Source of the DNA: Stutzerimonas stutzeri
GTDB lineage: Bacteria; Pseudomonadota; Gammaproteobacteria; Pseudomonadales; Pseudomonadaceae
Assembly: GCF_024448985.1 (NCBI RefSeq)
Contig: NZ_JAMOII010000006.1
Span: forward strand, 105,132 to 169,131
Length of the DNA stretch: 64,000 nt
Reading direction: 5' to 3'
Of this stretch, positions 9,227-64,000 are shown one piece after another. Within the stretch, counting starts at the first letter, position 1; the number at the start of each line of letters is the position of its first letter. A program made the translations under genes and the position numbers. A model generated the notes under the pieces. That model ran no database searches, was not told where the DNA came from, and worked only from the letters and a program-made list of their open reading frames with translations.

Positions 9227-9239
9227 TTAAGGAACCGAA

Positions 9240-10523: not shown

Positions 10524-10563
10524 TCGGACAGGTCTGAATTCAGCGATTGAAAGGAGTGACGGT

Positions 10564-11205
10564 GTGACCTCGGGTACCGAAGAAGAACAGCTGGCGCAGA
10601 TCAAGGACTGGTGGCAGCGTAACGGCAAGCCTTTGCTGTTGGGGGGCATACTCGCGCTGGTGCTGGTGTTTGGTTGGCAGTTCTGGCAAAAGCATCAACT
10701 CAATCAGGCACATAACGCCTCGGCCGTCTATCAACAGTTGCTCAATGCCGCGCTGAATGAGGGTGCGGTGGATAACGCCGAAGTGTCGCGCCTGGGCAAT
10801 CTGCTGCAGAAAGAATTTGCCGGCACGCAGTACGCGCAGTACGGCAGCCTCTTCGTAGCCAAAGTGGCGGTGGAGTCCGGCCGTCTCGATGAAGCCGCAA
10901 CAGAGTTGCGGAGCGTGCTGGACAAGCCCGCTGACAAGACGCTCGAAGAACTGGCCCGCCAGCGCCTCGCTCGCATTCTGGCCGCGCAGGATAAGGCTGA
11001 AGAGGGACTCGCATTGCTGCAAGGTGAGGCTCTCGAAGCATTCGCTGCCAGTCGTGAAGAGTTGCGAGGCGATCTGCTGGTCAGGCTGGGGCGGTATGAC
11101 GAAGCCCACGCTGCCTATACCAAGGCCAAAGAAGTGCTGTCACAAGACGCCGCAATCGGCGGTCTGCAGCTGAAACTGGACGACCTGGCTCGTGGAGAGG
11201 CATGA
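10564..11205 (+). CDS. yfgM: YfgM-like membrane-anchored TPR protein (SecYEG ancillary subunit family)
   Basis: A 213-residue inner-membrane protein with a short cytoplasmic N-terminus (EEEQLAQIKDWWQRNGKP), one transmembrane helix at about 25-42 (LLLGGILALVLVFGWQFW) and a periplasmic TPR-like domain. The family (DUF2133/YfgM) associates with SecYEG and periplasmic chaperones. I chose GTG 10564 because AAAGGAG lies 7 bases upstream; an ATG-initiated longer frame would run back into hisS. It sits between hisS and bamB, as in enterics and pseudomonads. Confidence 0.9.
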   Translation: MTSGTEEEQLAQIKDWWQRNGKPLLLGGILALVLVFGWQFWQKHQLNQAHNASAVYQQLLNAALNEGAVDNAEVSRLGNLLQKEFAGTQYAQYGSLFVAKVAVESGRLDEAATELRSVLDKPADKTLEELARQRLARILAAQDKAEEGLALLQGEALEAFAASREELRGDLLVRLGRYDEAHAAYTKAKEVLSQDAAIGGLQLKLDDLARGEA

Positions 11206-11209
11206 ATTG

Positions 11210-12358
11210 ATGCGTTGGAAGACTGCCGCACTGCTGACCCTGGCCGTCCTGACTGCCGGTTGCAGCAGCAATGACAAGAAAGAACCCGAACCCGCCGAGT
11301 TGGTCAAGTTCGATGCCGAGATCGAGCTGAGCAAGCAATGGAATCGTTCGATCGGTGAAGGCCAGGGTGAGACCTACAATCTGCTAACACCTGTCGTCTA
11401 CGGTGATGAGATATTCGCCGCTGACGTCGAAGGGCTCGTCGTAGCGATGGATCGCATGACCGGCAAGGTCAACTGGAAAAGTGATCTGGAGATGCCGATA
11501 TCCGGCGCGGTGGGTGCCGGTTACGGCTTGGTGCTGGTTGGCACCCTGCGTGGCGAAGTCCTGGCGCTCGATGTCTCGACCGGAGAAGAGCGTTGGCGCA
11601 GTCGGGTTAGCAGCGAGATTCTCGCCGCACCCGCCGTCAATGGTGACGTGGTGGTCGTTCAGACTCAGGATGACCGTGTCATCGCGTTGGATATCGACAC
11701 CGGTGAGCAGCGTTGGAGTTACGAAAGCTCCCCGGCGGTGCTTACTCTTCGTGGTACCGGCGCTCCGCTACTGACCAATGAACTGGCCATTGCCGGGCTT
11801 TCCAGCGGCAAAGTCGTGGCGCTGGACACTCGTCGTGGTCTGCCTGTCTGGGAGCAGCGTGTCGCTATTCCGCAAGGCCGCTCCGAACTCGAGCGCGTCG
11901 TCGATATCGATGGCGGTCTGCTGCTTTCCGGCGAAACCTTGTATGTCGCCTCCTTCCAGGGACGCGTCGCTGCGCTGGATCTACAAAGCGGCCGTATTCT
12001 CTGGCAGCGCGATGCCTCCACCTCGTCCGGTGTGGCGATGGGCTACGGTAGCGTCTATCTCAGTCAGGCTGATGGCTCGGTTATCGGAATCGATGAACGT
12101 TCGACTACGGTGCTTTGGACGAACGACGAGCTCGCTCGCCGCCAGCTATCGGCGCCAACCGTGTTTTCCAGCTATGTGGTGGTCGGCGACAAGGAAGGTT
12201 ATCTGCATTTCCTGAGTCAGGTCGATGGTCGCTTCGTGGCACGCACTCGCATCGATAGCAATGGCGTGCGTGCGCGGCCTGTGGTCGAGGGTGACTGGCT
12301 GTATGCCTACGGCAATGGCGGGAAGCTGGTCGCGTTGACTATTCGCCAGGCGGATTGA
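11210..12358 (+). CDS. bamB: Outer-membrane protein assembly factor BamB
   Basis: Lipoprotein of the BAM complex that folds beta-barrel proteins into the outer membrane. From ATG 11210 the 382-residue protein has a lipoprotein signal with lipobox LTAGC and then an eight-bladed PQQ-type beta-propeller with repeated blades such as VVAMDRMTGKVNW, VLALDVSTGEERW and VIALDIDTGEQRW. It follows the YfgM-like gene by 4 bases and precedes der. Confidence 0.95.
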   Translation: MRWKTAALLTLAVLTAGCSSNDKKEPEPAELVKFDAEIELSKQWNRSIGEGQGETYNLLTPVVYGDEIFAADVEGLVVAMDRMTGKVNWKSDLEMPISGAVGAGYGLVLVGTLRGEVLALDVSTGEERWRSRVSSEILAAPAVNGDVVVVQTQDDRVIALDIDTGEQRWSYESSPAVLTLRGTGAPLLTNELAIAGLSSGKVVALDTRRGLPVWEQRVAIPQGRSELERVVDIDGGLLLSGETLYVASFQGRVAALDLQSGRILWQRDASTSSGVAMGYGSVYLSQADGSVIGIDERSTTVLWTNDELARRQLSAPTVFSSYVVVGDKEGYLHFLSQVDGRFVARTRIDSNGVRARPVVEGDWLYAYGNGGKLVALTIRQAD

Positions 12359-50463: not shown

Positions 50464-51759
50464 ATGAATACCCGTAACAATCTCGATGAGTACCAAAGCA
50501 CCGTTCGTGCGCTGTCCGACCGCATCGTGGAAGCGCAAACTCCAGTGCGGGTGCTCGATGCTGTGAAGTGGGACGAGCATGTCCGCCAAGGCTTTTTCGC
50601 AGCAAACGGGCGCGAGCTGCCCAAGGTCGACCGCGCTTATTACGAAGGTCGTCCGCTGGCCTTCGACTCCAGCGCTAAGAAGGAAGAGTTCCAAAACATC
50701 GAGCGTGACATTACCCGTCAGCTGGGGCAGTTCAACCCGGTCGGGCAGATCATGCGTCGGATGTGCAAGGAATATCGCATGGTGATCCGCATGCTCGAAG
50801 CGCGTGGAACCGCTGACTTCGGTCTGATTTCTCAGGAGCTTTACGGCGCCGCTTCGGATGCCTTCCATGCCGGCGACCCGACCTTGTCCGACCTCGGCCT
50901 GATGCTGTCGGACTACTTGAACAACATCGCCGACCGGGGTGATCTCAAGGACGAAGCCAAGGTACTGACCGCCCCGCAGGCGGTGGAGATGTTGCAGCGG
51001 CGCTTGGACCTGGTGTTCGGCGAAGGCGAGGGCGTGATCCGCGTGTTCGAGTCCGATGGCATTCTGGCCGACGCCGCAGCCGGCGCCGATTACATCAAGA
51101 TTCGCAGCGATGCGATGTTCAACGAGCGCGACGTACGTGCGCTGGAAGTTCACGAAGGGCTGGTGCACGTCGGCACCACGCTCAATGGACAGAACCAGCC
51201 GATCTGTACTTTCCTCGCCAAGGGACCGCCGTCGTCCACCGTGACTCAGGAAGGCCTGGCGATCCTGATGGAAGTGATCGCCTTCGCGTCCTATCCGACG
51301 CGGCTGCGCAAGCTCACCAACCGCACCCGCGCCATCCACATGGCCGAAGAGGGCGCGGATTTCCTCGATGTGTTCGCCTTCTTCCGCGACCAGGGCTACG
51401 CCGAGGACGAGTGCTACAGCAACGCCAGCCGGGTATTTCGCGGCTCGCTCCCGAATGGTTTGCCCTTCACCAAGGACCTGTCCTACCTGAAGGGTTTCAT
51501 CATGATCTACAACTACATCCAGCTAGCGGTGCGCAAGGGCAAGCTGGAGCAAATCCCGCTGCTGTTCTGCGGCAAGACCACTTTGGAAGACATGCGCACG
51601 CTGCGCCAACTGGTGGAGGAGGGAATGGTGGTTCCGCCCAAATACCTGCCACAGCAATTCCAAGACCTGAACGCGCTTTCAGCCTGGATGTGTTTCTCCA
51701 ACTTCCTCAATCATCTCAGCCTGGACCGCATCGAGGCTGACTACGCCAACATCATCTAA
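50464..51759 (+). CDS. DUF1704 putative metallopeptidase (HExxxH, QEGLA motif)
   Basis: A 431-residue protein labelled in many genomes as a flavohaemoglobin expression-modulating QEGLA protein. It has HExxxH at His230-His235 (EVHEGLVH) and QEGLA at 262-266, whose Glu263 could be a third zinc ligand. The same motifs define DUF1704, a family that includes the eukaryotic tubulin carboxypeptidase MATCAP. A zinc peptidase activity is therefore likely but unproven for the bacterial protein. It is a single gene ending at a strong terminator. Confidence 0.85.
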   Translation: MNTRNNLDEYQSTVRALSDRIVEAQTPVRVLDAVKWDEHVRQGFFAANGRELPKVDRAYYEGRPLAFDSSAKKEEFQNIERDITRQLGQFNPVGQIMRRMCKEYRMVIRMLEARGTADFGLISQELYGAASDAFHAGDPTLSDLGLMLSDYLNNIADRGDLKDEAKVLTAPQAVEMLQRRLDLVFGEGEGVIRVFESDGILADAAAGADYIKIRSDAMFNERDVRALEVHEGLVHVGTTLNGQNQPICTFLAKGPPSSTVTQEGLAILMEVIAFASYPTRLRKLTNRTRAIHMAEEGADFLDVFAFFRDQGYAEDECYSNASRVFRGSLPNGLPFTKDLSYLKGFIMIYNYIQLAVRKGKLEQIPLLFCGKTTLEDMRTLRQLVEEGMVVPPKYLPQQFQDLNALSAWMCFSNFLNHLSLDRIEADYANII

Positions 51760-51819: not shown

Positions 51820-53130
51820 TCAGAACAGCAGGTTTGGCAGATACGTGGCAATCTCTGGGAAGACCATGATGATGCCTAGCCCAATGATGTTGACGATCAC
51901 GAAAGGTATTACCGACCAGTAGATGTCGCGCATGGTAATGCCCGGCGGCACGATGCCCTTCAGGTAGAACAAGTTGAACCCGAACGGCGGCGTCATATAG
52001 CCGATCTCCATGTTGATCACAAAGAGGATGCCGAACCAGATCGGGTCGAAGCCCAGCGATGCCACGATCGGCAAGAACACCGGGAGGGTGATCAGCATGA
52101 TGCCCACCGGGTCGAGCAGCATCCCCATCAGGAACACCACGGCCATCATGGTGATGATGATGCCCCAGCGTCCGCCTGGCAGATCCATCATCAAGCCTTC
52201 GATCAGCGACTGCGCGCCCATTCCCTGATAAGCCGAGCTGAACGCATGGGCTGCGAACAGAATCCAGGCGATCATCCCGGTCAGCTTGAAGGTGCGGATG
52301 GCAGCTTCCTGAACGATTTCCCAGTTGAGCTTGCGGTAAACCGCAGCGGAGATCAGTGCGCCGAGCACGCCCATGGCGGCGGCCTCGGTAGGTGTGGTCA
52401 TGCCGCCGATGATCGAGCCAAGCACCATCACCACGATGCCGATGGGCAGGATTACCGCGCGGACGGCATGTAGCTTGTCGCTCCAGCTTCCGCGTTCCTC
52501 TTTCGGTAGCGCTGGTGCCAGATGCGGCTGGAAAAAGCAGCGACCCAGTACATAGATAACGGTCAGAGCCACCAGCAGGATGCCTGGTAGCACACCCGCG
52601 GCGAACATCTTGCCTACCGAGACACCACTGATCATCGCGTAGAGGATCATCATGATGCTCGGCGGAATCAGAATGCCCCAACCACCGCCAGTGTTGATGC
52701 AGCCAAGCACCATGCGCTTGTCATAGCCGCGCTCGAGCATGGCCGGCAACGCGATGGTGCCCATGGCCACTACCGCTGCACCGCTGATGCCGACCATCGC
52801 GCCGAAGACCGCACAGATGCCGAGCGTGCCAACCGCCAGGCCGCCACGCATGCCGCCGCACCACAGATGCATCATGCGATAGAGGTCGCGGGCGACGCCG
52901 GTGCGTTCGAGCAGCATCGCCATGAAGACAAACAGCGGGATGGCCACCAGCGTGAAGCTGCCCATGGTGCCCCACATTTGCGAGGCCACCATGTAGAAGG
53001 CGTCGACGCCCCAGGTGAAATACAGAAACAGGACCGAAACTCCGCCGAGTACGAAGGCCAGCGGCAAACCAAGAATCAGGAAAAAAATAAGCGATAAGAA
53101 GAACAGCAGGGTGGTGATCTCGATGCTCAT
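51820..53130 (-). CDS. dctM: TRAP transporter large permease DctM
   Basis: Large membrane subunit of a sodium-driven tripartite (TRAP) transporter, 436 residues with about 12 transmembrane helices. Family features include GVARDLYRMMHLWCGGMRGG, GGWGILIPPSIMMILYA and the GSIIGGMTTPTEAAAMGV and LDPVGIM segments. Its ATG overlaps the dctQ stop by 4 bases, so the two membrane subunits are coupled. Confidence 0.95.
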   Translation of the reverse strand: MSIEITTLLFFLSLIFFLILGLPLAFVLGGVSVLFLYFTWGVDAFYMVASQMWGTMGSFTLVAIPLFVFMAMLLERTGVARDLYRMMHLWCGGMRGGLAVGTLGICAVFGAMVGISGAAVVAMGTIALPAMLERGYDKRMVLGCINTGGGWGILIPPSIMMILYAMISGVSVGKMFAAGVLPGILLVALTVIYVLGRCFFQPHLAPALPKEERGSWSDKLHAVRAVILPIGIVVMVLGSIIGGMTTPTEAAAMGVLGALISAAVYRKLNWEIVQEAAIRTFKLTGMIAWILFAAHAFSSAYQGMGAQSLIEGLMMDLPGGRWGIIITMMAVVFLMGMLLDPVGIMLITLPVFLPIVASLGFDPIWFGILFVINMEIGYMTPPFGFNLFYLKGIVPPGITMRDIYWSVIPFVIVNIIGLGIIMVFPEIATYLPNLLF

Positions 53131-53672
53131 TCTTGCCCCTCCTTGGATGATTCAGGCAGATCAAGACCAGGCTCGAGATTCAGCGCGACGAGTATGTCTT
53201 CAAGCAGCTTTGCCACACCTTGCAGAAGTAGCAGTCCGACTGCGATTGGGATGGCCGCTTTTATCGGCCAGATCGGAGGATTCCAAGCCGAGTAGGAGGT
53301 TTCCATGCTTTGAATCGACTCCCAGGCCATAGAACTACCGAAATACAGCAGGGCCGCCACGAAGAGGAAAAACATTACAGAGGTGAAGATATCCAGCCAG
53401 GCCTGGGTGCGCCGCGACAGTGCGCTATAGAGCAGATCGACACTGACATGGCCGCGATGGGCCAGGACGTAACCACCGGACAGGACGATGTAGAGGCCGA
53501 ACAGCATTTGCCCGAGCTCGTTAGTCCATGAGGTCGGCGAGGCAAATAGGTATCGCATGAACACTTCGCCAATCAGCAATAGAAAAATGACGAAGATCAG
53601 ATACGCCGCCCAGCGACCGATCACATTGTTCAGCCGCGTAATGCCGTTTATGTACGCATGAATTAAGCGCAT
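53127..53672 (-). CDS. dctQ: TRAP transporter small permease DctQ
   Basis: Small membrane subunit of 181 residues with four transmembrane helices (WAAYLIFVIFLLLIGEVFMRY, LGQMLFGLYIVLSGGYVL, AWLDIFTSVMFFLFVAALLYFG, IWPIKAAIPIAVGLLLLQG). The motif TSWTNELGQ after the first helix is typical of DctQ. It lies between dctP and dctM. Confidence 0.92.
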   Translation of the reverse strand: MRLIHAYINGITRLNNVIGRWAAYLIFVIFLLLIGEVFMRYLFASPTSWTNELGQMLFGLYIVLSGGYVLAHRGHVSVDLLYSALSRRTQAWLDIFTSVMFFLFVAALLYFGSSMAWESIQSMETSYSAWNPPIWPIKAAIPIAVGLLLLQGVAKLLEDILVALNLEPGLDLPESSKEGQE

Positions 53673-53712
53673 CGCTAACTCCAGGACAGCACGGAGAATC
53701 GGGAGCGAACCC

Positions 53713-53767
53713 GCACCGGGCGCCCGTGATGGCAGGATTGAGTGGCGCCATCACGAATGCCGGGTGC
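53713..53767 (-). promoter_or_regulatory. Intercistronic stem-loop between dctP and dctQ
   Basis: Inner arms CGTGATGGC (53725-53733) and GCCATCACG (53747-53755) pair perfectly, and outer arms GCACCGGGC (53713-53721) and GCCGGGTGC (53759-53767) pair with one mismatch. A long hairpin here would protect the dctP part of the mRNA or partly end transcription, so that more binding protein than permease is made. Confidence 0.65.
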
Positions 53768-53785
53768 GCTGGTGAGCTTGTCAGG

Positions 53786-54820
53786 TCAGAGGTAGCCGAG
53801 ATCGCCAAGCATGGTCTTGAGCATCTGTAGCGCCTTGGCCGCGTTTTCGCTGCGCTTGCCTTCGGCGTCCCAAGTCTTCTGCGCGACTTCGGTCAGGCGC
53901 TTCTGAACGTCATCGGGTAGCGTGTTGACCTCAACACCGTGTTCCTTGATGGCGTTGGAGAGGGCAATCTGCTCCTGATACAGGTACTCGTTGGTACGGA
54001 ACCAGAACTGCTCGTCCAGGACCTGCTTGACGACTTTCTGATCTTCCTCGGACAGCGCGTCGAGCGCCTTCTGGCTGACAATGATCACATCGGTACCGGC
54101 AATGTTTAGTGCCGGTTTGACGTGGTACTTGGTCACTTCATAGAAGCTCATGCTCGCCGCACCCTGGGCGGCGCCCCAATGCGCAGCGTCGACCACGCCG
54201 GTGTCCAGCGCAGGATAGAGTTCGCTACCCGGCAGGAAGGTGGTTGAAGCACCGGCTTCACTGAGGAATTTCTGCAGCGCGCCCGAGGAGCGGATCTTCA
54301 GCTTGGTGAAGTCTTCCCAGCTGTTGATTGGCTTCTTCACAACCATCTCGGTGGGGTAAACCTTGTCAGTCGACCAGTACACGTTGTGCTTGGCCGCTTC
54401 CTCGCGAAGCATGTCTTCGAAGCCCATGTGCTTGTGGAAATACGCGGCTTCCCAGACGTTGCGGAAGGCGAAGGGCAGACCGGAGGCGATACCGGCCAAG
54501 ATTATTTTGTCCTGGGCGTAACCGGGGGAGATCGTGCCCATCTGCAAGATACCGCGGCTGACCGCGTTGAAGGTTTCCGTATCTTTGAACAGAGCGCCGG
54601 CCTCGAACAGCTGCAATTGCAGGCGGCCTTCGGTACGTCGTTCGAGCTCAGTCTTCAGGCGAACCAGACTGTCTTTATAGGAGCTGCTGGCGCTCGGCCA
54701 ATGGGACTGGACACGCCATTTGGCGACGTCCTGCGCGGCGGCCATCTGCGGTGCAACCGCACCGATCGCCAGCGCGACCAGGCTAGCGGGTACGAGTAAC
54801 TTCTTGAGCATGGATTTCAT
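53786..54820 (-). CDS. dctP: TRAP transporter substrate-binding protein DctP
   Basis: Periplasmic binding protein of 344 residues with signal peptide MKSMLKKLLVPASLVALAIG...AAAQD. The start at 54820 has AGGA at good spacing; the open frame continues upstream to 54892 without signal features. The DctP fold is marked by KWRVQSHWP, TKLKIRSSG, whose arginine usually binds the substrate carboxylate, and VVDAAHWGAA. A carboxylic acid substrate is expected; the divergent acyl-CoA operon suggests it feeds that pathway. Confidence 0.94.
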   Translation of the reverse strand: MKSMLKKLLVPASLVALAIGAVAPQMAAAQDVAKWRVQSHWPSASSSYKDSLVRLKTELERRTEGRLQLQLFEAGALFKDTETFNAVSRGILQMGTISPGYAQDKIILAGIASGLPFAFRNVWEAAYFHKHMGFEDMLREEAAKHNVYWSTDKVYPTEMVVKKPINSWEDFTKLKIRSSGALQKFLSEAGASTTFLPGSELYPALDTGVVDAAHWGAAQGAASMSFYEVTKYHVKPALNIAGTDVIIVSQKALDALSEEDQKVVKQVLDEQFWFRTNEYLYQEQIALSNAIKEHGVEVNTLPDDVQKRLTEVAQKTWDAEGKRSENAAKALQMLKTMLGDLGYL

Positions 54821-55255
54821 AACGCGTCCTCTTGTTGTAATTGTCTGGCTGACGGCCACTTTCTTGCACTTGCATCGCTCTCTGTTTCGCACAGCAAAAC
54901 TAATTTCTGCATAGTTATCCGAAAGCTAACATAGCGTGCAGCTTTTTCAACCACCAGCAGAGCGCTATCGTCATCTTTCATATCTTTCCCAATATGTCCA
55001 ACCGCTTGGCTGAATGGCGCTATGGCACTTCGACATTGAGCTTAGACGGTTCTGTTTGTGGGTCGTCATAATTCTGCCTGATGGAACTGGATTTCGAATT
55101 GACGCATCGTTTCAGGCATGCCAGCTTCAAAAGGAAGCGGATTCGTCATAAAAACAATCCAGAGGACACGCTATGCGGCTCGACATCAGAACTATCGGGA
55201 AGGAATTGAGGCATGCCTGGACGCCCACCACGACCTTACGCCCGAAACCTGCCCG
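54821..55255. other. Divergent regulatory spacer between the TRAP genes and the acyl-CoA operon
   Basis: This 435-base gap holds the outward promoters for dctPQM and the plus-strand operon. I cannot name a convincing -35/-10 pair or operator. The frame of the thioesterase is open back to 55118, so its 5' part may be coding if translation begins there. No regulator gene lies in the window next to the cluster. Confidence 0.4.
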
Positions 55256-55774
55256 ATGAACGGAGTGGACGTGGATCAGCTGACGAGCGAGGCCCCGAGC
55301 GATCACCAGCCGATTAGCGGAGGCAAGGATTTGCCGGGCTTTCATCAGGTGCTTGGCTATCGTCAGGTGTCTTGGTCTGAAAACGAGGCGGTTATTGAGT
55401 TGGATGTGCAGGCTTGCCATCTGAACATGGCAGGTGTGCTCCATGGCGGGGTGCTGACATCGCTACTTGATGTGGTACTGGCCGAGGCAGGCACCTACTG
55501 TCCTTACCCAGGGCGCGTGCGCAAGGCCATGACGTTGGTACTCAACACGACTTTTACCGGCCAGTGTTCAGGCGGCGTCATCCGCGCCATCGGTAAGCGG
55601 CGTGCCGGTGGCAACCGAATTTTCAACAGTTCCGGCGAAGTACGCGACCAGGATGATCGTCTGCTGGCGATCGGCGAAGCGACTTTCCGCCTGCGCTCCG
55701 GCAGCGAGCATCCGCAAGGGGTGCCATTTTCGTTGCCCTCGCAAAACAACAAGAAGGAGAACGGCGATGTATGA
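55256..55774 (+). CDS. PaaI-type hotdog-fold thioesterase
   Basis: Acyl-CoA thioesterase of about 172 residues from ATG 55256, with the hotdog helix [27 protein letters not shown] and the following strands. It probably removes CoA from a stalled intermediate or product. The start is uncertain: no strong RBS precedes 55256, the frame is open from 55118, and GTG 55271 has a GGAG upstream. It overlaps the acyl-CoA dehydrogenase start by 8 bases and so opens the catabolic operon. Confidence 0.78.
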
Positions 55775-56978
55775 ATTGACTGGTAAAGCGCTCCAGATTC
55801 ATGAACAGCTGACGGCTTTCATGGAAGAGCATGTCTATCCCAACGAACATCTCTTTCATGAACAGGTCGCCACCGCAGCGGATCGCTGGGCGCCGCCGCC
55901 GATCCTCGAAGAGCTCAAGCACAAAGCCAAGGCGCAGGGGCTATGGAACCTGTTCCTGCCAGAGAGTGAGTTTGGCGCCGGGCTGACCAATTTCGAATAC
56001 GCCCATCTTTGCGAAATCATGGGGCGCTCCCACGGCGCTGCTGAGGTCTTCAACTGCTCGGCGCCGGACACCGGCAACATGGAGGTGTTGACGCGCTATG
56101 GCACGCCGGAACAGCAGGAGCAGTGGCTCAAGCCTTTGCTCGATGGCGAGATCCGCTCCTGCTTTTCCATGACGGAACCTGACGTGGCCTCGTCCGACGC
56201 CACCAATATCGCCTGCGAGATCCGCCGCGAAGGTGACGAGTATGTGATCAACGGGCACAAGTGGTGGTCGTCCGGCGCGATGGCAACCTCCTGCAAGATC
56301 GCCATTGTCATGGGTAAGACCGATCCCACGGCCGAGCGCCATCGGCAGCAGTCGATGATCCTCGTGCCGCTGGATACGCCCGGCGTGGAAATCACCCGCG
56401 CGCTCCACGTATTTGGTTACGACCACGCGCCTCACGGTCATGCCGAGATTCACTACAACAATGTCCGCGTCCCGGCGAGCAATATGTTGCTGGGCGAGGG
56501 CCGTGGTTTCGAGATTGCTCAGGGTCGTCTCGGCCCAGGCCGCATCCACCACTGCATGCGCACCATCGGTGTGGCCGAGCGCGCGCTGCAAGCCATGTGC
56601 GAGCGCGTTCATTCCCGCGTGGCGTTCGGCAAGCCGCTGGCGGATTTCGATTCGATCCGCAAGGACATCGCCCGTTCGCGTATCGAAATCGAGCAGACCC
56701 GCCTATTAACGCTCAAAGCGGCGCGCATGATGGACACGGTCGGCAACAAAGTGGCGCGGCAGGAAATTGCCATGATCAAGGCCGCCGCACCGAGCATGGC
56801 GTTGCGGGTGCTTGATCGCGCCATTCAGGTTCACGGCGCCAAGGGCGTCTGCCAGGACAGCTTCCTGGCGGCGGCCTGGGCTCATCAGCGGACCCTGCGG
56901 TTGGCGGACGGCCCGGATGAGGTGCATCTGGACACCATCGCCAAGCTGGAGCTGCAGAACTACTCCAAAAAGCGCTGA
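55767..56978 (+). CDS. Acyl-CoA dehydrogenase-family protein, ACAD11-like
   Basis: FAD-binding ACAD of 403 residues from ATG 55767 with AAGGAG upstream. FAD and substrate motifs are [14 protein letters not shown] and [11 protein letters not shown]; the C-terminal helical domain has VHGAKG. Instead of the usual EGT catalytic glutamate the protein has Asp381-Gly-Pro ([10 protein letters not shown]), the pattern I associate with the ACAD10/11-LvaC group, which acts on 4-phosphoacyl-CoA rather than saturated acyl-CoA. An APH kinase, fused to this domain in ACAD11, is two genes downstream. Confidence 0.85.
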
Positions 56979-57011
56979 GCCTCCGACAAAACCTATAAGA
57001 AGGATGCAGTC

Positions 57012-57779
57012 ATGAATAATCCGCTATTTGATCTGACCGGAAAGGTGGCGCTGATCACCGGTTCCACTCGCGGTATTGGCCGCTCCATCGCCGAAGAGAT
57101 GGCCCGGTGCGGCGCCCGCGTCGTCATTTCCAGCCGCAAGGCCGATGCCTGCGAGGCGGTGGCGGGCGAACTCAACGCTGCCGGCTACGAGGCCATCTCG
57201 GTACCTTGCCACGTAGGCCGCAAGGAAGACCTGCAGCGGTTGGTCGACACCACCCTGCAAACTTGGGGGCGCATCGACGTACTGGTCTGCAACGCGGCCA
57301 CCAACCCTGTCTATGGTCCAACCAGCGAGCTGACCGACGACGCCTGGGACAAGATCATGGACACCAACGTCAAGGGCACCTTCTGGCTGTCCAACATGGT
57401 CCTGCCGCAGATGGCCGAGCGCGGTGAGGGTGCGGTGATCATGCTTTCCAGTATTGCCGGCCTGCGAGGCAATACCGTGATCGGCACCTACGGTGTGTCC
57501 AAGGCAGCCGAAGCGGCGCTGGCACGCAATCTGGCTGCCGAGTGGGGCCCCAAGGGCATTCGCGTCAACGCCATCGCGCCGGGGCTGGTGCGTACCGATT
57601 TTGCAAAGGCACTGCTCGATGATCCGGAGCGGGTACGCCGCGCCGCCGAAAAGACGCCACTACGACGTATCGGCGAGCCGGTGGATATCGCCGGTTTGGC
57701 GGTGTTCCTTGCAGCGCCGGCCAGTGCCTATATCACCGGCCAGGTAATCGTCGCCGATGGCGGCGAAACCGCATGCTGA
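57012..57779 (+). CDS. Short-chain dehydrogenase/reductase (LvaD-like position)
   Basis: Classical SDR of 255 residues: cofactor motif GSTRGIGRSIAEEM near 17, NAATNP, catalytic Ser (MLSSIAG), Tyr-Lys in YGVSKAAE, and the C-terminal GQVIVADGGETAC. It likely interconverts a keto and a hydroxy group of an acyl-CoA. In the lva levulinate operon an SDR holds the comparable role. It lies 33 bases after the ACAD and 10 bases before the kinase gene. Confidence 0.88.
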   Translation: MNNPLFDLTGKVALITGSTRGIGRSIAEEMARCGARVVISSRKADACEAVAGELNAAGYEAISVPCHVGRKEDLQRLVDTTLQTWGRIDVLVCNAATNPVYGPTSELTDDAWDKIMDTNVKGTFWLSNMVLPQMAERGEGAVIMLSSIAGLRGNTVIGTYGVSKAAEAALARNLAAEWGPKGIRVNAIAPGLVRTDFAKALLDDPERVRRAAEKTPLRRIGEPVDIAGLAVFLAAPASAYITGQVIVADGGETAC

Positions 57780-57789
57780 GGGGCCGGTA

Positions 57790-58860
57790 ATGAGCGAACC
57801 GGAACTGATTGAGGTCCTGCCGGCACATCGCTTCGATGAGGTCGCGCTGGCTCGGTATCTGCGCTTGCACGTGCCGGAGATGGGTGAAGAACTGAGCATT
57901 CTTCAGTTCCAGGGTGGTCAGTCCAACCCTACCTATCTATTAGAGAGCGCCGGGCGCCGTTATGTGCTGCGCAAAAAGCCGCCAGGCAAGGTGCTGCCTT
58001 CCGCGCACATGGTCGAGCGCGAATACAAGGTGATCCGCGCGCTGTCCGAGCACACCCGCGTGCCGGTGCCGCGCGTGCATCTGCTGTGCGAGGACGACAG
58101 CATCATCGGCACCGCTTTCTACCTGATGGATCATGTGACAGGCCGGATTTTCAGCCACCCGGCGTTGGAGGGCATGAGCGTCGAGGAACGACAGCCGATC
58201 CATCTCGCCGCTGTCGATACGCTGGCCGAGCTGCATCAGGTGGATGTAGAAGCGGTCGGGCTTGCCGATTTCGGCAAGGCGCAGGGTTATTTCGCCCGGC
58301 AGGTAAAGCGGTGGTCCGGCCAGTATCAGGCGTCCCGCACAGGCGACATGCCTGAAATGGAACGGCTGATGCAGTGGTTGCCTGAGCAAGTGCCGCAGCA
58401 CGATGAGTGCGCTATCGCTCATGGCGATTACCGCCTCGGTAATCTGATCTTCGAGCCGGGGCAGGCGAAGGTAGCGGCAATTCTCGACTGGGAGCTGTCC
58501 ACCGTGGGCCATCCGCTGGCCGATCTCGCTTATTTCTGCCTGCCTTATCACCTGCCAGCCGGTGTCGATGGCCTGCGTGGATTGGTTGGCACCGACTTGC
58601 ACGCGCAGGGCATCCCATCTGAGCAGGAGGTTCTTGAGCGCTACTGTCGGCAGAGCGGGCGCGCTGATGTTGCGCAGTGGCATGTCTTCGTGGCCTTTTC
58701 GCTATTCCGGCTCGCGGCGATTCTGCAAGGCGTTTACGCCCGTGCGTTGCAGGGCAATGCCAGCAATGCCGATGCGCTGCAGGTCGGCCAGCGCGCCGGT
58801 TTGCTTGCAGAAGCCGGCTGGCGCATCGCCCAGAGCGGTGACAAGGGAGCACTGTCATGA
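57790..58860 (+). CDS. APH-family phosphotransferase (LvaA / ACAD10-11 kinase-domain type)
   Basis: Aminoglycoside-phosphotransferase-fold kinase of 356 residues. ATP-site lysines are in YVLRKKPPG; the catalytic motif is HGDYRLGNL with Asp213 and Asn218; the metal aspartate is Asp233 in ILDWELSTVGHPLADLAY. The GQSNPTYLL N-terminal motif is typical of the ACAD10/11 kinase domain. It probably phosphorylates a hydroxyacyl-CoA, not an antibiotic. The stop overlaps the SurE start (ATGA). Confidence 0.86.
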   Translation: MSEPELIEVLPAHRFDEVALARYLRLHVPEMGEELSILQFQGGQSNPTYLLESAGRRYVLRKKPPGKVLPSAHMVEREYKVIRALSEHTRVPVPRVHLLCEDDSIIGTAFYLMDHVTGRIFSHPALEGMSVEERQPIHLAAVDTLAELHQVDVEAVGLADFGKAQGYFARQVKRWSGQYQASRTGDMPEMERLMQWLPEQVPQHDECAIAHGDYRLGNLIFEPGQAKVAAILDWELSTVGHPLADLAYFCLPYHLPAGVDGLRGLVGTDLHAQGIPSEQEVLERYCRQSGRADVAQWHVFVAFSLFRLAAILQGVYARALQGNASNADALQVGQRAGLLAEAGWRIAQSGDKGALS

Positions 58861-59660
58861 CCGGTCCATTGCTGCGGCGCGTGCTGCTGACCAACGATGA
58901 CGGCATCGCCGCACCGGGGCTCGCACTGCTCGAGCGGATCGCTGCGCAACTGGCCGAAGAAGTCTGGGTTGTGGCGCCCGAGCACGACCAGAGCGGCACT
59001 GGCCAGGGCATCTCAGTGCATTCGCCGTTGCGGGTGTATCACCATGGGGAAAGGCGCTTCGCCGTCTCCGGTACACCGTCTGACTGCGTCATGTTCGCGA
59101 TGGCTGAATGGCTGCAGAATTCACCGCCGGAGCTGGTCCTGTCCGGCATCAACAGCGGGGCGAATATCGGCGACTCGGTGCCGTATTCCGGGACCTTGGG
59201 TGCGGTGCTCAGTGCCGACCTGCTGGGGCTACCCGCCATCGGGCTGAGCCAGGCCTTTCTCGACCGCACCAGTATCGACTGGTCCTGTGTCGAAACTTAT
59301 GCTGAAACCACGATCCGTGCGCTCTGGGCGCGTCGGGAGGAGGGCGGTTGCTGCTGGAACCTCAACTTTCCGGCCTGCCCGGCTGATGCGGTCAGCCACT
59401 TGCGGATGACCAAGCAATCACGCGGCTCGATCGCCCGCCCACGGCTGCAGGCGGGCCGGGACGGTCGAGGCTTACCTTACTGGTGGCTCGGTTTCGAGCA
59501 CTCTTCGGCGCACCTCGTCGATCCCGAACTCGATGTCACCGCGCTGCGCGAGAAGCGCATCGCCATCACTCCCTTGCGCGACACCCGGGGCTGGCTCGAG
59601 TGGGGCGAAGAACGGGCCATGGCCGAACTGGCCGTCCATAGCGATTCAGGAGTTCTTTAA
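58857..59660 (+). CDS. SurE-family phosphatase/nucleotidase paralogue
   Basis: A 267-residue SurE-fold metal phosphatase. The metal-binding LLTNDDG is at the N-terminus; SGTGQGIS, SGTPSDCV and the SGINSGANIGDSVPYSGTLGA region complete the family site. The housekeeping surE usually lies with pcm, nlpD and rpoS; here it is inside an acyl-CoA operon, overlapping the kinase gene before it and the ligase gene after it. It may remove a phosphate added by the neighbouring kinase or act on a pathway phosphate ester; the substrate is unknown. Confidence 0.85.
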   Translation: MTGPLLRRVLLTNDDGIAAPGLALLERIAAQLAEEVWVVAPEHDQSGTGQGISVHSPLRVYHHGERRFAVSGTPSDCVMFAMAEWLQNSPPELVLSGINSGANIGDSVPYSGTLGAVLSADLLGLPAIGLSQAFLDRTSIDWSCVETYAETTIRALWARREEGGCCWNLNFPACPADAVSHLRMTKQSRGSIARPRLQAGRDGRGLPYWWLGFEHSSAHLVDPELDVTALREKRIAITPLRDTRGWLEWGEERAMAELAVHSDSGVL

Positions 59661-61342
59661 TGTTCACTCGTCATCACGCGGTCTGGCCCGATGATTTGCC
59701 GAAACATCTGACGGTGCCGGAAACCAGTCTGTTCGCCAATCTGGAAATATCCGCGCGGCGTTTTCCGGACAAGACGGCGATCATCTATTACGACACCCTG
59801 ATCACCTACACCGAGCTGCTGCGTGAAGTGGAAGCGCTGGCCGGCTATCTGCAGGACCTGGGGGTCGCCAAGGGTGATCGGGTGCTGTTGTACATGCAGA
59901 ACTCACCGCAGTTCACCATCGCCTACTACGCGATTCTTCGCGCAGACGCGGTGGTGGTGCCGGTCAACCCGATGAACCACAGCGCCGAGCTGGAGCATTA
60001 CCTGCACGACACCGGCGCTACGGTGAGTCTCTGCGGGCAGGAGCTGACCGGCTTCATCGCGCCGCTGGTCGGCACGGCGCAGCTGCGCCATGTGGTCGTC
60101 GCGGCCTATTCCGAATACGTGCGGCAATCCACCGACCTGGCCCTGCCGGCTGAAGTCCAGGCAGCAGCGGTCACACCGAGCTTCACTGGCGGCATCGGCT
60201 GGAATGAGGCCATCCGTGCTGGCCATACACCGGGCCCCCACACGGCCGGCCCCAACGATCTCTGCGTGTTTCCCTACAGTTCCGGCACTACCGGCGCGCC
60301 GAAGGGTTGCATGCACACCCATCGCTCGGCCATGGCGACGATCATCCACCGCGTGGTCTGGACCAACAGCACCAGTGAATCGGTGATTCTCGCGACGCTG
60401 CCGTACTTCCATGTGACCGGCATGCAGGGCGCCATGAGCGGGCCGATCTATAACGGCGGCACCGCAGTGATCATGACCCGCTGGGACCGCAAGGTGGCGG
60501 CAGAGCTGATCGAGCGGCACAAGGTGACCGGCTGGGTCAACATCGCCACGATGGCCATCGACTTTCTCTCCGATCCGGATCTGGAGCGCTACAACCTGTC
60601 CAGTCTGGTCAGTGTCGGCGGCGGTGGCGCGGCGATGCCCAAGGCGGTGGAGGAGAAGCTGCACCGGCTCACCGGCCTGCGCTACATCGAGGGCTACGGG
60701 TTGTCGGAAACCATCGCGGCCACCCATATCAATCCGGTGCCGCGGCCCAAGGCGCAGTGCCTCGGCATTCCGGTGTTCGATGTCGACAGCCGCGTCATCG
60801 ACCTGAACACTCAGGCCGAACTCGGCCCCAACGAAGTGGGAGAGATCATCAGCTATGGACCACAGCTCTTTGCCGGATACTGGAACCGGCCAGAGGAGAC
60901 CGAGCGCGCCTTCATCGAACTGGACGGCAAGCGCTTTTTCCGCACGGGCGACATGGGCTACTACGACGAGGAGGGCTATTTCTTCCTGGTCGATCGGGTC
61001 AAGCGCATGATCAACGCCTCGGGTTTCAAGGTCTGGCCGTCTGAGGTGGAGAGCCTGATGTACCGCCACCCGGCAATCCAGGAGTGCTGCGTCATTTCGC
61101 GTCCCGACCCCAAGCGCGGCGAGACGGTGAAGGCCTGCGTGGTGCTGCGTGACGGTCAGGTTGGACAGGTTACCGAGCAAGACATCATCGACTGGTGCAA
61201 GGCGGAGATGGCCGCCTACAAGGCGCCTGTCTATGTGGAGTTCGTCCCGTCACTGCCGCGTTCATCCACCGGCAAGCTGATGTGGCGCGCCTTGCAGGAA
61301 GAGGAAAACCGCAAGCATGCCGCCAGCGCGCAAGAGGCCTGA
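59660..61342 (+). CDS. Acyl-CoA synthetase (AMP-forming, ANL family)
   Basis: A 560-residue adenylate-forming ligase. The P-loop motif is PYSSGTTGAPKGCMHTH near 208-224; EGYGLSET and FRTGDMGYYDEEGYFF are the following core motifs, and the catalytic C-terminal lysine is in SSTGKLMW. It presumably activates the operon's carboxylic acid substrate. The start overlaps the surE stop by one base (TAATG). Confidence 0.9.
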   Translation: MFTRHHAVWPDDLPKHLTVPETSLFANLEISARRFPDKTAIIYYDTLITYTELLREVEALAGYLQDLGVAKGDRVLLYMQNSPQFTIAYYAILRADAVVVPVNPMNHSAELEHYLHDTGATVSLCGQELTGFIAPLVGTAQLRHVVVAAYSEYVRQSTDLALPAEVQAAAVTPSFTGGIGWNEAIRAGHTPGPHTAGPNDLCVFPYSSGTTGAPKGCMHTHRSAMATIIHRVVWTNSTSESVILATLPYFHVTGMQGAMSGPIYNGGTAVIMTRWDRKVAAELIERHKVTGWVNIATMAIDFLSDPDLERYNLSSLVSVGGGGAAMPKAVEEKLHRLTGLRYIEGYGLSETIAATHINPVPRPKAQCLGIPVFDVDSRVIDLNTQAELGPNEVGEIISYGPQLFAGYWNRPEETERAFIELDGKRFFRTGDMGYYDEEGYFFLVDRVKRMINASGFKVWPSEVESLMYRHPAIQECCVISRPDPKRGETVKACVVLRDGQVGQVTEQDIIDWCKAEMAAYKAPVYVEFVPSLPRSSTGKLMWRALQEEENRKHAASAQEA

Positions 61343-61406
61343 CGACTGCGTACCGATTGCAGGCCATGCGCCACTGAGCGCCTTCGAGACCAATGGAGAG
61401 GATGCT

Positions 61407-62162
61407 ATGCAAGATTCAACTTCGACGAATCGGAACAATCGGGACGCGGAATGGCAAGTGCGCAAGGACCTCGCCGCGGCCTATCGGCTGGTGGCGCACT
61501 TTGGCTGGGACGACTTGGTGTTCACTCATCTGTCGGCCCGTGTGCCGGGGCCGGAACATCACTTCCTGATCAACCCGTACGGCCTGCTGTTCCAGGAAAT
61601 CACCGCCTCATCGCTGGTGAAGGTCGACCGTGAAGGCCAAATCGTCCAGAGCGGCAGCCTGCACCGGGTCAATCCAGCCGGTTTCACCATTCACAGCGCC
61701 ATTCACATGGGACGCGAAGACGCCGGAGCGGTCATGCACCTGCATGCGGCCGATGGCACGGCGGTCTCGGCGCATCGTGACGGCCTGCTGCCGCTGAGCC
61801 AGACGGCCATGCTCTGTCTGGATCACATTACCTATCATGAATATGAGGGTGTAGCGCTGGACCTCAGCGAGCGTGAGCGGCTGATCGCCGATCTTGGAAG
61901 CAAGCAGATGATGATCTTGCGCAACCATGGGGTGCTTACCGCCGGGGCAACCGTAGCCGAAGCCTTCACTTACCTCTACTTCCTGATGAAGGCGTGCGAG
62001 ATCCAGGTGCGCGCCCAGTCCTGCGGGCCGACCCACATGCCTTCTGCCGCTGCCATCGAGACCACTCGCCAGCAATCGGCTGGACTGGGCAGCGCCGCCA
62101 AGCTGACCTGGCCGGCGCTCTTGCGTCTGCTTGAGGCTAAAGGCCACGTTTACGCGATATAG
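61407..62162 (+). CDS. Class II aldolase/adducin-family protein
   Basis: A 251-residue protein of the class II aldolase/adducin fold. ATG 61407 has GGAGAGGATG upstream. Signature parts are FGWDDLVFTHLSAR, NPYGLLFQEITASSL, AVMHLHAADGTA with metal-ligand histidines, and LRNHGVLTAGAT. Members cleave or decarboxylate sugar-like or hydroxy-keto acids; its role with acyl-CoA genes is not obvious. It lies 64 bases behind the ligase and 73 bases before the dehydrogenase. Confidence 0.85.
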   Translation: MQDSTSTNRNNRDAEWQVRKDLAAAYRLVAHFGWDDLVFTHLSARVPGPEHHFLINPYGLLFQEITASSLVKVDREGQIVQSGSLHRVNPAGFTIHSAIHMGREDAGAVMHLHAADGTAVSAHRDGLLPLSQTAMLCLDHITYHEYEGVALDLSERERLIADLGSKQMMILRNHGVLTAGATVAEAFTYLYFLMKACEIQVRAQSCGPTHMPSAAAIETTRQQSAGLGSAAKLTWPALLRLLEAKGHVYAI

Positions 62163-62235
62163 CTTCGATTGGCGCTATGACCTGTCTGCCGTCGTGCAGA
62201 CCAAATCCTTTCAGAAGAGTGGAAGCTGAGTGCCT

Positions 62236-63165
62236 ATGAAAATCCTGTTTGTTGCCGCCGATCCCAAGCCCGAACGCTGGACCAACTTGATCCAGCAGCA
62301 TCTGCCGAATGCAAAGATTCAGGTCTGGCATCCGGACATGCCGAGCTGCGGCGCCGACTACGCCATCGTCTGGCATCCGCCGGCCGCGTTGTTTGAAAAG
62401 GAGCCGCAGCTCAAGGCCATCTTCAATCTCGGCGCAGGCGTAGACGCCCTGGTCCAGGTGCCGAACCTGCCGCGTGATGTTCCGGTGGTGCGCCTGGAAG
62501 ACGCCGGCATGGCCGTGCAGATGGCCGAGTATGTTGCCTATCACGTGATCGGCATCAGCCGCGACATGGATGCCTACCGCGAGCAACAGACTGCAGGGCA
62601 ATGGAAGTTGCGCCGGCCAATCGAACGCAGCGGGTGGCCAGTGGGCGTGCTCGGGCTGGGGCACATCGGCCAACGTGTCGCCCGCACACTGGCGGGACTG
62701 GACTATCCGGTTTGTGGCTGGGCGCGCTCCACCTACGCCATAGACGGCGTGCGTAGTTTCGCTGGTGAGTCGGAGCTTGACGGATTTCTGGCCGAGACCC
62801 GAGTGCTGGTCAACACGCTGCCATTGACCGACAGCACTCGCGATCTGATCGACTATTCGCTACTGGCCCGGCTCAGACCCGATGCGGTGGTGATCAACGT
62901 CGGTCGCGGTGAGCACCTAGTGGATCAGGATCTCTGCAGCGCCATCGAAGAAGGCCGCGTGGCCCGCGCCGTGCTCGACGTGTTCCGTGAGGAACCGCTA
63001 CCCACAACGCATCCATTCTGGAATATGCCGCAAGTGACCATCACGCCGCATGTCTCGGCGCGCACCCTTCGCGAAGCGACCATCGAGCAGATCGCCGGCA
63101 AGATCGCGGCGCTGGAGAGGGGGCAATCCATAAGCGGCGTTATCGATATCCAGCGCGGCTATTGA
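62236..63165 (+). CDS. D-2-hydroxyacid dehydrogenase, GhrA-like
   Basis: NAD(P)-dependent 2-hydroxyacid dehydrogenase of 309 residues from ATG 62236 (GTG 62230 is an alternative). The Rossmann motif is GVLGLGHIGQRVA, and catalytic residues are in NVGRGEHLV, the glutamate in FREEPL and the histidine in TPHVSA. GhrA members reduce glyoxylate and hydroxypyruvate. It closes the plus-strand operon and suggests that a 2-keto or 2-hydroxy acid is formed. Confidence 0.88.
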   Translation: MKILFVAADPKPERWTNLIQQHLPNAKIQVWHPDMPSCGADYAIVWHPPAALFEKEPQLKAIFNLGAGVDALVQVPNLPRDVPVVRLEDAGMAVQMAEYVAYHVIGISRDMDAYREQQTAGQWKLRRPIERSGWPVGVLGLGHIGQRVARTLAGLDYPVCGWARSTYAIDGVRSFAGESELDGFLAETRVLVNTLPLTDSTRDLIDYSLLARLRPDAVVINVGRGEHLVDQDLCSAIEEGRVARAVLDVFREEPLPTTHPFWNMPQVTITPHVSARTLREATIEQIAGKIAALERGQSISGVIDIQRGY

Positions 63166-63343
63166 GGAGCCTGGCACGGGCTCGCTCCGGTGGGAGGCGC
63201 GGCCCGTGGCGAAAGCGGATTGTCTGCCGGCTAAAGAGCTTCGCCCTGAGGGCGGGCCTCCAACAAAAGCACACTCCGAGCTTCGCGCCGGATTAGCGGG
63301 GTTTTGTCATCCACCGGCCGTACGGCCGGCGTTGCCGGTCCGC

Positions 63344-64000
63344 TCAGTCCGCTATGCCATGCTCGGCTAGGTAGCGATCACGTAGCTCGCGCTTGAGCAC
63401 CTTGCCAATGGCGCTGCGTGGCAGCTCGTCAGTCAGTTCCAGGCGGGCCAGCCGCTGGGTTTTGCCAACACGGCTGTTGAACCCGTCCAGTAGCGCTTGC
63501 GGCGTTTCCGTCGCGCCGGGCTTCAGCACCACGAAGGCCACCGGCGTTTCGCCCCAGCGGGTGGATGGCATCCCGACCACGGTTGCGTCCGCTATCGCAG
63601 GGTGTTCGCGCAGGATCGCTTCGAGATCGCTCGGATACAAATTGAAGCCGCCGGAGATGATCATGTCCTTCTTGCGATCGAGCAGGGTCAGGAAGCCGTC
63701 ATCGTCGAAGCGCCCGATGTCCCCCGTGCGGATGAAGCGCTTGCCGCTGGCGTCGAACCACTCAGCTTCGGCGGTTTTCTCAGGCTTGTTCAGGTAGCCG
63801 ATCATCATCGCTGGCGAGTGCCCGACTACCTCGCCGATAGCGCCAGGGGGCAGCTCGTTGCCCTCATCGTCGATCACGCGAATGTCGTGCCCTTCGGCCG
63901 GCTTGCCGACGGTGTGCAGTTTGTGCGGATATTCATGTGCAGAAAGGATGCAGGTGCCGCCGCCTTCGGTCATCCCGTAAAAATCCATCAGTGCACCCGG
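63344..64000 (-). CDS. Acyl-CoA synthetase (AMP-forming), C-terminal part; start beyond window
   Basis: The 3' 218 codons of a second ANL-family ligase; the frame is open to the window edge, so the ATG at 63988 is internal. Motifs: FYGMTEGGG, IRTGDIGRFDDDGFLTLLDRKKDMIISGGFN and the C-terminal catalytic lysine in SAIGKVLKRELR. It converges with the hydroxyacid operon. Whether it serves the same pathway cannot be told; the 178-base gap between them has no gene. Confidence 0.92.
   Translation of the reverse strand, partial: PGALMDFYGMTEGGGTCILSAHEYPHKLHTVGKPAEGHDIRVIDDEGNELPPGAIGEVVGHSPAMMIGYLNKPEKTAEAEWFDASGKRFIRTGDIGRFDDDGFLTLLDRKKDMIISGGFNLYPSDLEAILREHPAIADATVVGMPSTRWGETPVAFVVLKPGATETPQALLDGFNSRVGKTQRLARLELTDELPRSAIGKVLKRELRDRYLAEHGIAD

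Follow-up and report, generated by a model that had tools for sequence, protein, structure and literature searches.

The phosphorylate-and-eliminate route for hydroxy acids was tied to mammalian ACAD10 and ACAD11 only in 2024–2025. In the mouse and human pathway for 4-hydroxy acids, a kinase works together with an acyl-coenzyme A (acyl-CoA) dehydrogenase (ACAD) (PMC12440821, PMC11342911), and a bacterial kinase and ACAD can stand in for the ACAD10 domains in vitro (PMC11342911). A related bacterial gene set, the lva operon for levulinate, was reported in a 2017 study (cited here via PMC6692424 and PMC12440821), and an lva cluster is also described for Pseudomonas citronellolis LA18T, where a phosphatase gene adjoins the two genes most induced on levulinate (PMC6692424). 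These three papers are cited from excerpts, and what we say of them applies to those excerpts. Here we describe a locus of Stutzerimonas stutzeri (contig NZ_JAMOII010000006.1), contained in the last part of a 64,000-nucleotide stretch that we call the window. It comprises a TRAP importer, an operon-like run of eight plus-strand genes that includes kinase, ACAD and a SurE phosphatase, and a second acyl-CoA ligase. We found that these genes behave as one cassette, and that its SurE is an extra copy tied to a wider kinase-ACAD module.

An orthologue of the cassette kinase is present in 14 of the 36 host-genus genomes other than its own, in one of them (G004) in pieces on a 3.4-kb contig. All eight plus-strand genes together with DctP, DctQ and DctM are found in every fetched host-genus locus with a kinase orthologue (13/13), and this completeness argues that the grouping is not due to chance. 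The lysS gene and a gene for a MATCAP-family protein lie at the left flank in 12 of these 13 loci, and the second ligase is present in 11. In five of five fetched host-genus non-carriers, the lysS-MATCAP pair and the right-flank DNA are 0.1–1.6 kb apart, and no cassette genes were detected in these five. The importer, the operon and the second ligase thus behave as one cassette, about 13 kb long in the relative locus L033. A first-pass annotation of this DNA had described eight co-directional genes beside a TRAP transporter; all are present where it placed them, Pfam and NCBIfam models confirm their families, and the second AMP-forming ligase also belongs to the unit. It had named beforehand a neighbourhood not conserved in relatives as grounds for rejecting its reading, and the neighbourhood proved to be conserved in the 13 host-genus loci, with a core module extending to other genera.

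The ACAD and the kinase share catalytic and phosphate-binding residues with the mammalian enzymes. The best matches of the ACAD in the Protein Data Bank (PDB) are ACAD11 entries (E 1.6e-147), with scores of 495–461 bits for these and 4hr3, whereas the next ACAD reaches 145 bits. In the alignment, mouse ACAD11 R626, R631, H634, C, M, R637 and D753 correspond to window R254, R259, H262, C263, M264, R265 and D381, and these residues are invariant in 17/17 aligned rows (residue numbering and roles follow PMC12440821; printed PDB chain numbers are one lower). All compared markers of the phosphate-eliminating ACAD type are therefore present, including Asp rather than Glu as catalytic residue (D753); in the ACAD-dead PDB entry 8v3v, Asn occupies the position of window D381. 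Substitutions of R626, H634 and R637 in ACAD11 stall the reaction at the phospho-intermediate (PMC12440821). The best PDB matches of the kinase are 3dxp and then the ACAD11 kinase domain, whose catalytic D220 and N225 and CoA-contacting R176 align with window D224, N229 and R181; in the kinase-dead entry 8v3u, Asp is absent at the position of D224. Kinase and ACAD genes lie close together in loci of five families. The kept residues, the stalled mutants and the replacement of ACAD10 domains by bacterial enzymes make a phosphorylate-then-eliminate step very likely, and the logic that the first-pass annotation had borrowed from lva and ACAD10/11 is supported.

To place the cassette in a wider context, we used a phylum sample of 398 genomes, in which the ACAD was matched in 129 (E ≤ 1e-100) and SurE relatives in 143 (E ≤ 1e-35). 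Only six genomes have a SurE match of about 60% identity or higher, and in each of them this SurE has an ACAD with 79% identity or more no further than 4 kb away. Of the 80 named loci, the nine best-ranked have SurE, which was not found beside the ACAD in any of the other 71, including L132, whose partial ACAD also has 74% identity. The nine are four Marinobacter loci, one from a Salinisphaera metagenome-assembled genome, Alkalilimnicola ehrlichii, two Ectothiorhodospiraceae and Halopseudomonas formosensis. ACAD, short-chain dehydrogenase/reductase (SDR), kinase and SurE are present in all nine, SurE being retained even in L087, where kinase and SDR are inverted; a related ligase is present in 8/9. 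No SurE-bearing locus outside the host genus was found to have GhrA, and outside it the aldolase turned up solely in some Marinobacter or Marinobacter-like loci (the latter are loci of family f20 whose SurEs group with named Marinobacter SurEs). Hence, the expectation that the same eight genes are kept together holds for all 13 host-genus loci but is ruled out beyond the genus, where GhrA and, though not everywhere, the aldolase drop out. The wider module is ACAD-SDR-kinase-SurE, with thioesterase and ligase as frequent companions and aldolase and GhrA as optional additions.

SurE had been given no role in the first-pass annotation, and it is the most telling addition. All 13 host-genus carriers examined (own genome included; G004 and G014 left out) have two SurE genes, and 12 of 13 non-carriers examined have one, the remaining G008 having a distant second; G247 has the cassette SurE only. 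In the SurE tree, a branch with support 92/89 separates the 19 cassette SurEs from the others. SurE distances correlate with those of ACAD, SDR and kinase (r 0.94–0.96, 19 loci); in eight spread-out loci r is 0.47–0.76, as against 0.54–0.67 for ACAD, SDR and kinase among themselves. SurE is thus an extra copy tied to the cassette module. Its family scores exceed the Pfam and TIGRFAM cut-offs, and the NDDG, Ser and Asn motifs, which we take to be those of the SurE active site, are kept in cassette SurEs. Immediately before the V-x-YSGT motif, 18 of the 19 cassette SurEs have Ser and one has Ala, and 5/10 others have Asp; since the five nearest others have Thr at this position, the change is not special to the cassette and hints at most weakly at a different substrate.

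Three kinds of importer lie beside the module: DctP-TRAP in the host genus and Marinobacter, TAXI-TRAP in Alkalilimnicola (L086) and Ectothiorhodospiraceae (L087; Pfam NMT1_3, which we take to be TAXI), and Liv-type ABC in Marinobacter, Salinisphaera and G247. TRAP or Liv-type ABC genes occur in 7/9 SurE-bearing named loci versus 5/71 other named loci. Some Marinobacter-like and Salinisphaera relatives also have genes for thiolase, FadB-like, MaoC, enoyl-CoA hydratase, PimD-like and further ACAD proteins nearby; these beta-oxidation-type neighbours fit delivery of the product into beta-oxidation.

From gene content and conserved residues, we consider it probable that the cassette serves catabolism of a carboxylic acid taken up from outside, in which a hydroxyl or keto group, most likely at carbon 4, stands in the way of beta-oxidation, with thioesterase and SurE controlling side reactions. 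The TRAP importer would bring the acid in, a ligase would form the CoA ester and the SDR would interconvert keto and hydroxy forms. The kinase would then phosphorylate the hydroxyacyl-CoA, and the ACAD, of a kind that needs flavin adenine dinucleotide without net oxidation, would eliminate phosphate, and the resulting enoyl-CoA would enter beta-oxidation. Any phospho-acyl-CoA unsuitable for the ACAD would lose CoA via the thioesterase, and SurE may act as a clean-up phosphatase that strips phosphate from the stalled phospho-hydroxy acid, so that acid, CoA and phosphate would be recovered. In the host genus, aldolase and GhrA would probably handle a later fragment. Such phospho-acid waste is plausible, since the ACAD10 kinase yielded roughly four times less product from the S than from the R form, and cells given 4-hydroxyhexanoate were found to contain the free phospho-hydroxy acid as well as its CoA ester (PMC11342911). 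No enzyme that would clear this free acid is named in the excerpts cited here.

Other phosphatases are found beside the kinase elsewhere. Neighbour clustering of 92 other kinase or ACAD11-type loci, with one protein per phosphatase cluster scanned (PF00300, PF04029), gave a histidine phosphatase cluster (PF00300) in 12 loci and a cluster of ComB-type 2-phosphosulpholactate phosphatases (PF04029) in five Bacillus-type loci. Among these 12 is the second kinase locus of the host itself, L055 (G000:C11:67000-86900), which at ~8900-12200 carries a second APH-type kinase (33% identity) with an SDR and the histidine phosphatase. Of the 80 named loci, eight have a histidine phosphatase no more than 2.5 kb from the ACAD (two matches, L117 and L133, are weak), and seven have ComB, namely six Bacillus-type loci and L123 (7.8 kb off). 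ComB is directly 3' of the kinase in five Bacillus-type loci (L095, L096, L102, L106 and L107); the known substrate of the ComB family is itself a phospho-hydroxy acid. In the SurE-bearing Ectothiorhodospiraceae loci, a histidine phosphatase is found further off, ~6.4 kb (L087) and ~7.7 kb (L089) from the ACAD.

In a separate sample, a histidine phosphatase was found within 4 kb in 8/48 ACAD11-like loci versus 0/39 ordinary-ACAD loci (Fisher test, P-value 0.006), and all eight are among the 27 of the 48 with a kinase within 4 kb. The 48 loci were 40 hand-picked from the phylum-sample ACAD matches, mostly one per genus, plus eight already fetched, SurE-bearing loci being left out. One of 40 controls (L238), near a cassette in its genome, was dropped before the count, and some controls share a genome or genus. 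Twelve proteins from loci examined earlier served to build the histidine-phosphatase profile, and one of those loci (L054) is among the 48; without it the counts are 7/47 versus 0/39 (P-value 0.012). A broader proposal, possible but in our judgement somewhat short of likely, is that many bacteria with this chemistry pair the kinase with a neighbouring phosphatase dedicated to it, recruited from one of at least three unrelated families (SurE, histidine phosphatase, ComB-type). This enzyme would recycle phospho-hydroxy acids unsuitable for the ACAD, such as the wrong enantiomer. The ACAD10 HAD domain, for which hardly any activity is reported, might then go back to the same requirement, as a relic or in a regulatory role, and SurE might perform metabolite repair beside its nucleotidase role. 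That SurE travels with the bacterial version, and that unrelated phosphatases stand at the same place elsewhere, points to a possible clean-up step and gives the extra SurE copy a concrete candidate substrate. Among the matches listed in literature searches, neither SurE nor ComB was linked with this route (in one of these searches the SurE term also matches an English word, which makes that search a weak one), and only PMC6692424 links a histidine phosphatase to lva genes; its authors suggest that the enzyme may remove phosphate from 4-phosphovaleryl-CoA.

Several observations weigh against the side-reaction role proposed for SurE and thioesterase, or against the pathway around it. SurE is known as a nucleotidase, and the NCBIfam matches of the cassette SurE are general 5'/3'-nucleotidase models. 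The thioesterase, which the clean-up idea needs, is present in only 6/9 SurE-bearing named loci. No SurE, histidine phosphatase or ComB lies within 4 kb in 40/48 ACAD11-like loci, or in 19 of the 27 that have the kinase; such a phosphatase is therefore not essential to the chemistry. Importer enrichment is rejected as a general trait of ACAD11-like loci (6/48 versus 5/39 controls) and holds only for the SurE-bearing group. R86 of the ACAD11 kinase, which like R176 contacts CoA, is unmatched at that number, with an Arg beside a conserved Glu two residues earlier. Finally, the ACAD10 HAD domain is reported to have negligible phosphatase activity on 4-phospho-hexanoyl-CoA (PMC11342911), so a phosphatase-like neighbour need not act on the phospho-intermediate.

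The substrate could also be a ring or branched hydroxy acid rather than a 4-hydroxy fatty acid, with kinase and ACAD removing the hydroxyl and aldolase and GhrA acting on the keto- or hydroxy-acid product. We regard this as doubtful. It would suit the Marinobacter-like locus L062 (G192), where a thiolase, three ACADs (one with PimD as its best match, 374 bits, below cut-off) and an aldolase lie beside the module, and it would suit importers that vary by lineage. However, the ACAD retains every residue that binds the 4-phosphate in ACAD11, and no ring-cleavage or ring-hydroxylating gene was found among the cassette genes.

For SurE itself, one could propose a plain nucleotidase that removes adenosine monophosphate (AMP) coming from the acyl-CoA ligase and so pulls activation forward, unrelated to any phospho-intermediate. 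SurE does fall within 5'/3'-nucleotidase models with its active-site motifs kept, the ligase adjoins it in the window and accompanies it in all but one of the SurE-bearing named loci, and ligases are near all six Bacillus-type ComB loci. Nevertheless, the histidine phosphatases of the 48-locus sample track the kinase (8/8 within 4 kb) and not the ligase (ligase match within 4 kb of the ACAD in 0/8), and this lack of a ligase speaks against AMP removal as the reason for their presence. Likewise, 7/8 named loci with a histidine phosphatase within 2.5 kb are without any ligase match in the locus, and ComB follows the kinase directly in five loci. The Ser or Ala of cassette SurEs in place of the Asp seen in half of the others is a weak sign in the same direction, tempered by the Thr of the five nearest others. 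We therefore consider a plain nucleotidase role unlikely and retain the clean-up phosphatase as the candidate function of SurE.

It is similarly improbable, in our view, that the cassette is the levulinate/4-hydroxyvalerate pathway in another layout, running from levulinate through levulinyl-CoA to 4-hydroxyvaleryl-CoA and on. Kinase, ACAD, SDR and ligase do make up the lva set, and the P. citronellolis cluster likewise has a phosphatase and is without lvaB (PMC6692424). On the other side, LvaB, an LvaR-type regulator and an LvaFG-type symporter are absent from the cassette, to which this search was confined; the ligase belongs to the PRK08314 'long-chain' subfamily; and the thiolase, FadB-like, MaoC, enoyl-CoA hydratase and PimD-like ACAD genes of Marinobacter-like and Salinisphaera relatives exceed the apparent need of a C5 acid. 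No LvaB-like gene was found beside the window kinase, where SDR and SurE abut it and leave no room. In other loci, the six largest clusters of small open reading frames (ORFs) beside 102 kinase ORFs look like shadow ORFs rather than LvaB-like genes (the inspection covered these six clusters and used no LvaB profile). Lastly, an ordinary dehydrogenase beside a kinase that phosphorylates something unrelated is highly improbable and largely excluded by the ACAD11-type residues, the steep fall in PDB scores after ACAD11 and 4hr3, the kinase matches and the proximity of both genes in five families.

Gene families were assigned with Pfam and NCBIfam models (Table 1). DctP, DctQ and DctM all score above Pfam cut-offs and hence form a complete TRAP transporter set. 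Adjoining plus-strand genes, from thioesterase to GhrA-like dehydrogenase, overlap or are separated by at most ~70 bases, packed as in an operon. The window ends where the contig ends and the second ligase runs off there; in L033 it is a 521-amino-acid (aa) ORF. The ACAD starts at the ATG at 55767 and not at the 5' end of the ORF at 55602. Judging from the translations and the lengths of relatives, later starts are more probable for DctP (~54820, preceding the signal peptide), thioesterase (~55256; relatives outside the host genus have ~146–151 aa), kinase (~57790) and aldolase (~61404).

Table 1. Features of the cassette, in window positions
Feature	Position	Strand	Basis
TRAP large permease DctM	51820..53130	-	PF06808 294 bits; TIGR00786 332 bits, above cut-off
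TRAP small permease DctQ	53127..53672	-	PF04290 103 bits
TRAP solute-binding protein DctP	53786..54892	-	PF03480 148 bits; best PDB match 2zzv, E 9e-25
Divergent intergenic region	54893..55117	.	Gene layout; larger if the later starts are right
Hotdog (PaaI-like) acyl-CoA thioesterase	55118..55774	+	TIGR00369 52 bits, above cut-off; PF03061
ACAD10/11/LvaC-type acyl-CoA dehydrogenase, phosphate-eliminating type	55767..56978	+	Residues R254, R259, H262-C-M-R265, D381
SDR	57012..57779	+	PF13561 224 bits; NCBIfam PRK07231 269 bits
APH-fold kinase, ACAD11 type	57757..58860	+	PF01636 174 bits; PDB 3dxp, 8v3v; D224, N229, R181 in 367-aa ORF
SurE phosphatase, extra copy	58857..59660	+	PF01975 180 bits; TIGR00087 166 bits, above cut-off
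AMP-forming acyl-CoA ligase	59660..61342	+	NCBIfam PRK08314 882 bits, above cut-off
Class II aldolase/adducin family protein, optional addition	61317..62162	+	PF00596 161 bits; PRK07044 358 bits, above cut-off
GhrA-like D-2-hydroxyacid dehydrogenase, genus-level addition	62230..63165	+	PF02826 162 bits; NCBIfam GhrA 275 bits, below 403 cut-off
Second AMP-forming acyl-CoA ligase, cut by contig end	63344..64000 and beyond	-	PF13193, PF00501

The divergent intergenic region is probably a shared control region. A promoter scan of it gave one weak match versus 0.4 expected by chance, and its inverted repeats are unremarkable. No regulator gene was found in the window cassette; IclR-family genes lie near the module in Alkalilimnicola and one Ectothiorhodospiraceae locus. 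DctP has His ('AHW') where the 2hzk and 4yzz chains have the Glu of an 'EW' pair, and the bound acid may therefore differ from theirs. To the left of the cassette, window positions 50464-51759 (+), adjoining lysS, give a full match (451 bits) to the Pfam family of microtubule-associated tyrosine carboxypeptidase (MATCAP), and this protein is present in 12/13 host-genus non-carriers searched. Two more ACAD11-type genes, of 64% and 58% identity, are located elsewhere in the host genome at L069 (G000:C11:107000-121890) and L070 (G000:C1:1-19900); no kinase match was found in the stretches fetched, and the L069 gene has a LysR-type regulator (assigned by cluster) and a TRAP permease nearby.

Compared with the mouse and human ACAD10/11 pathway, the cassette has the same kinase and ACAD types with the same catalytic and phosphate-binding residues (PMC12440821, PMC11342911). 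In ACAD10 and ACAD11 proper, however, kinase and ACAD are fused in one chain, whereas the cassette encodes them as separate ORFs in an operon and adds importer, ligases, SDR, thioesterase and SurE; ACAD10 has a HAD domain instead (PMC11342911). With the lva operon it has kinase, ACAD, SDR and acyl-CoA ligase in common (PMC6692424, PMC12440821), but it is without LvaB, LvaR and LvaFG and adds a TRAP importer, SurE, thioesterase, aldolase, GhrA and a second ligase; the cassette is not an lva operon. The P. citronellolis LA18T cluster comes closer in that lvaB is missing and a phosphatase gene lies among kinase, ACAD and SDR (PMC6692424). That phosphatase is of the histidine family, and the cluster has an acetate-type symporter and an LvaR-like regulator; the cassette has SurE and neither of the latter two. 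From the SurE 5'/3'-nucleotidase family, whose scores and motifs it shares, the cassette SurE differs in that it is linked to a catabolic cassette and comes in addition to the host's other surE. As a self-contained set for import, activation, hydroxyl removal and perhaps repair, the cassette may be of use for the breakdown of lactone- or lignocellulose-derived acids. Overall, the 'undescribed pathway' of the first-pass annotation was too strong a term for chemistry that is already known, and it remains apt for the gene set and the substrate; what is new is this gene set, a SurE copy tied to the module, and unrelated phosphatases at other ACAD11-type loci.

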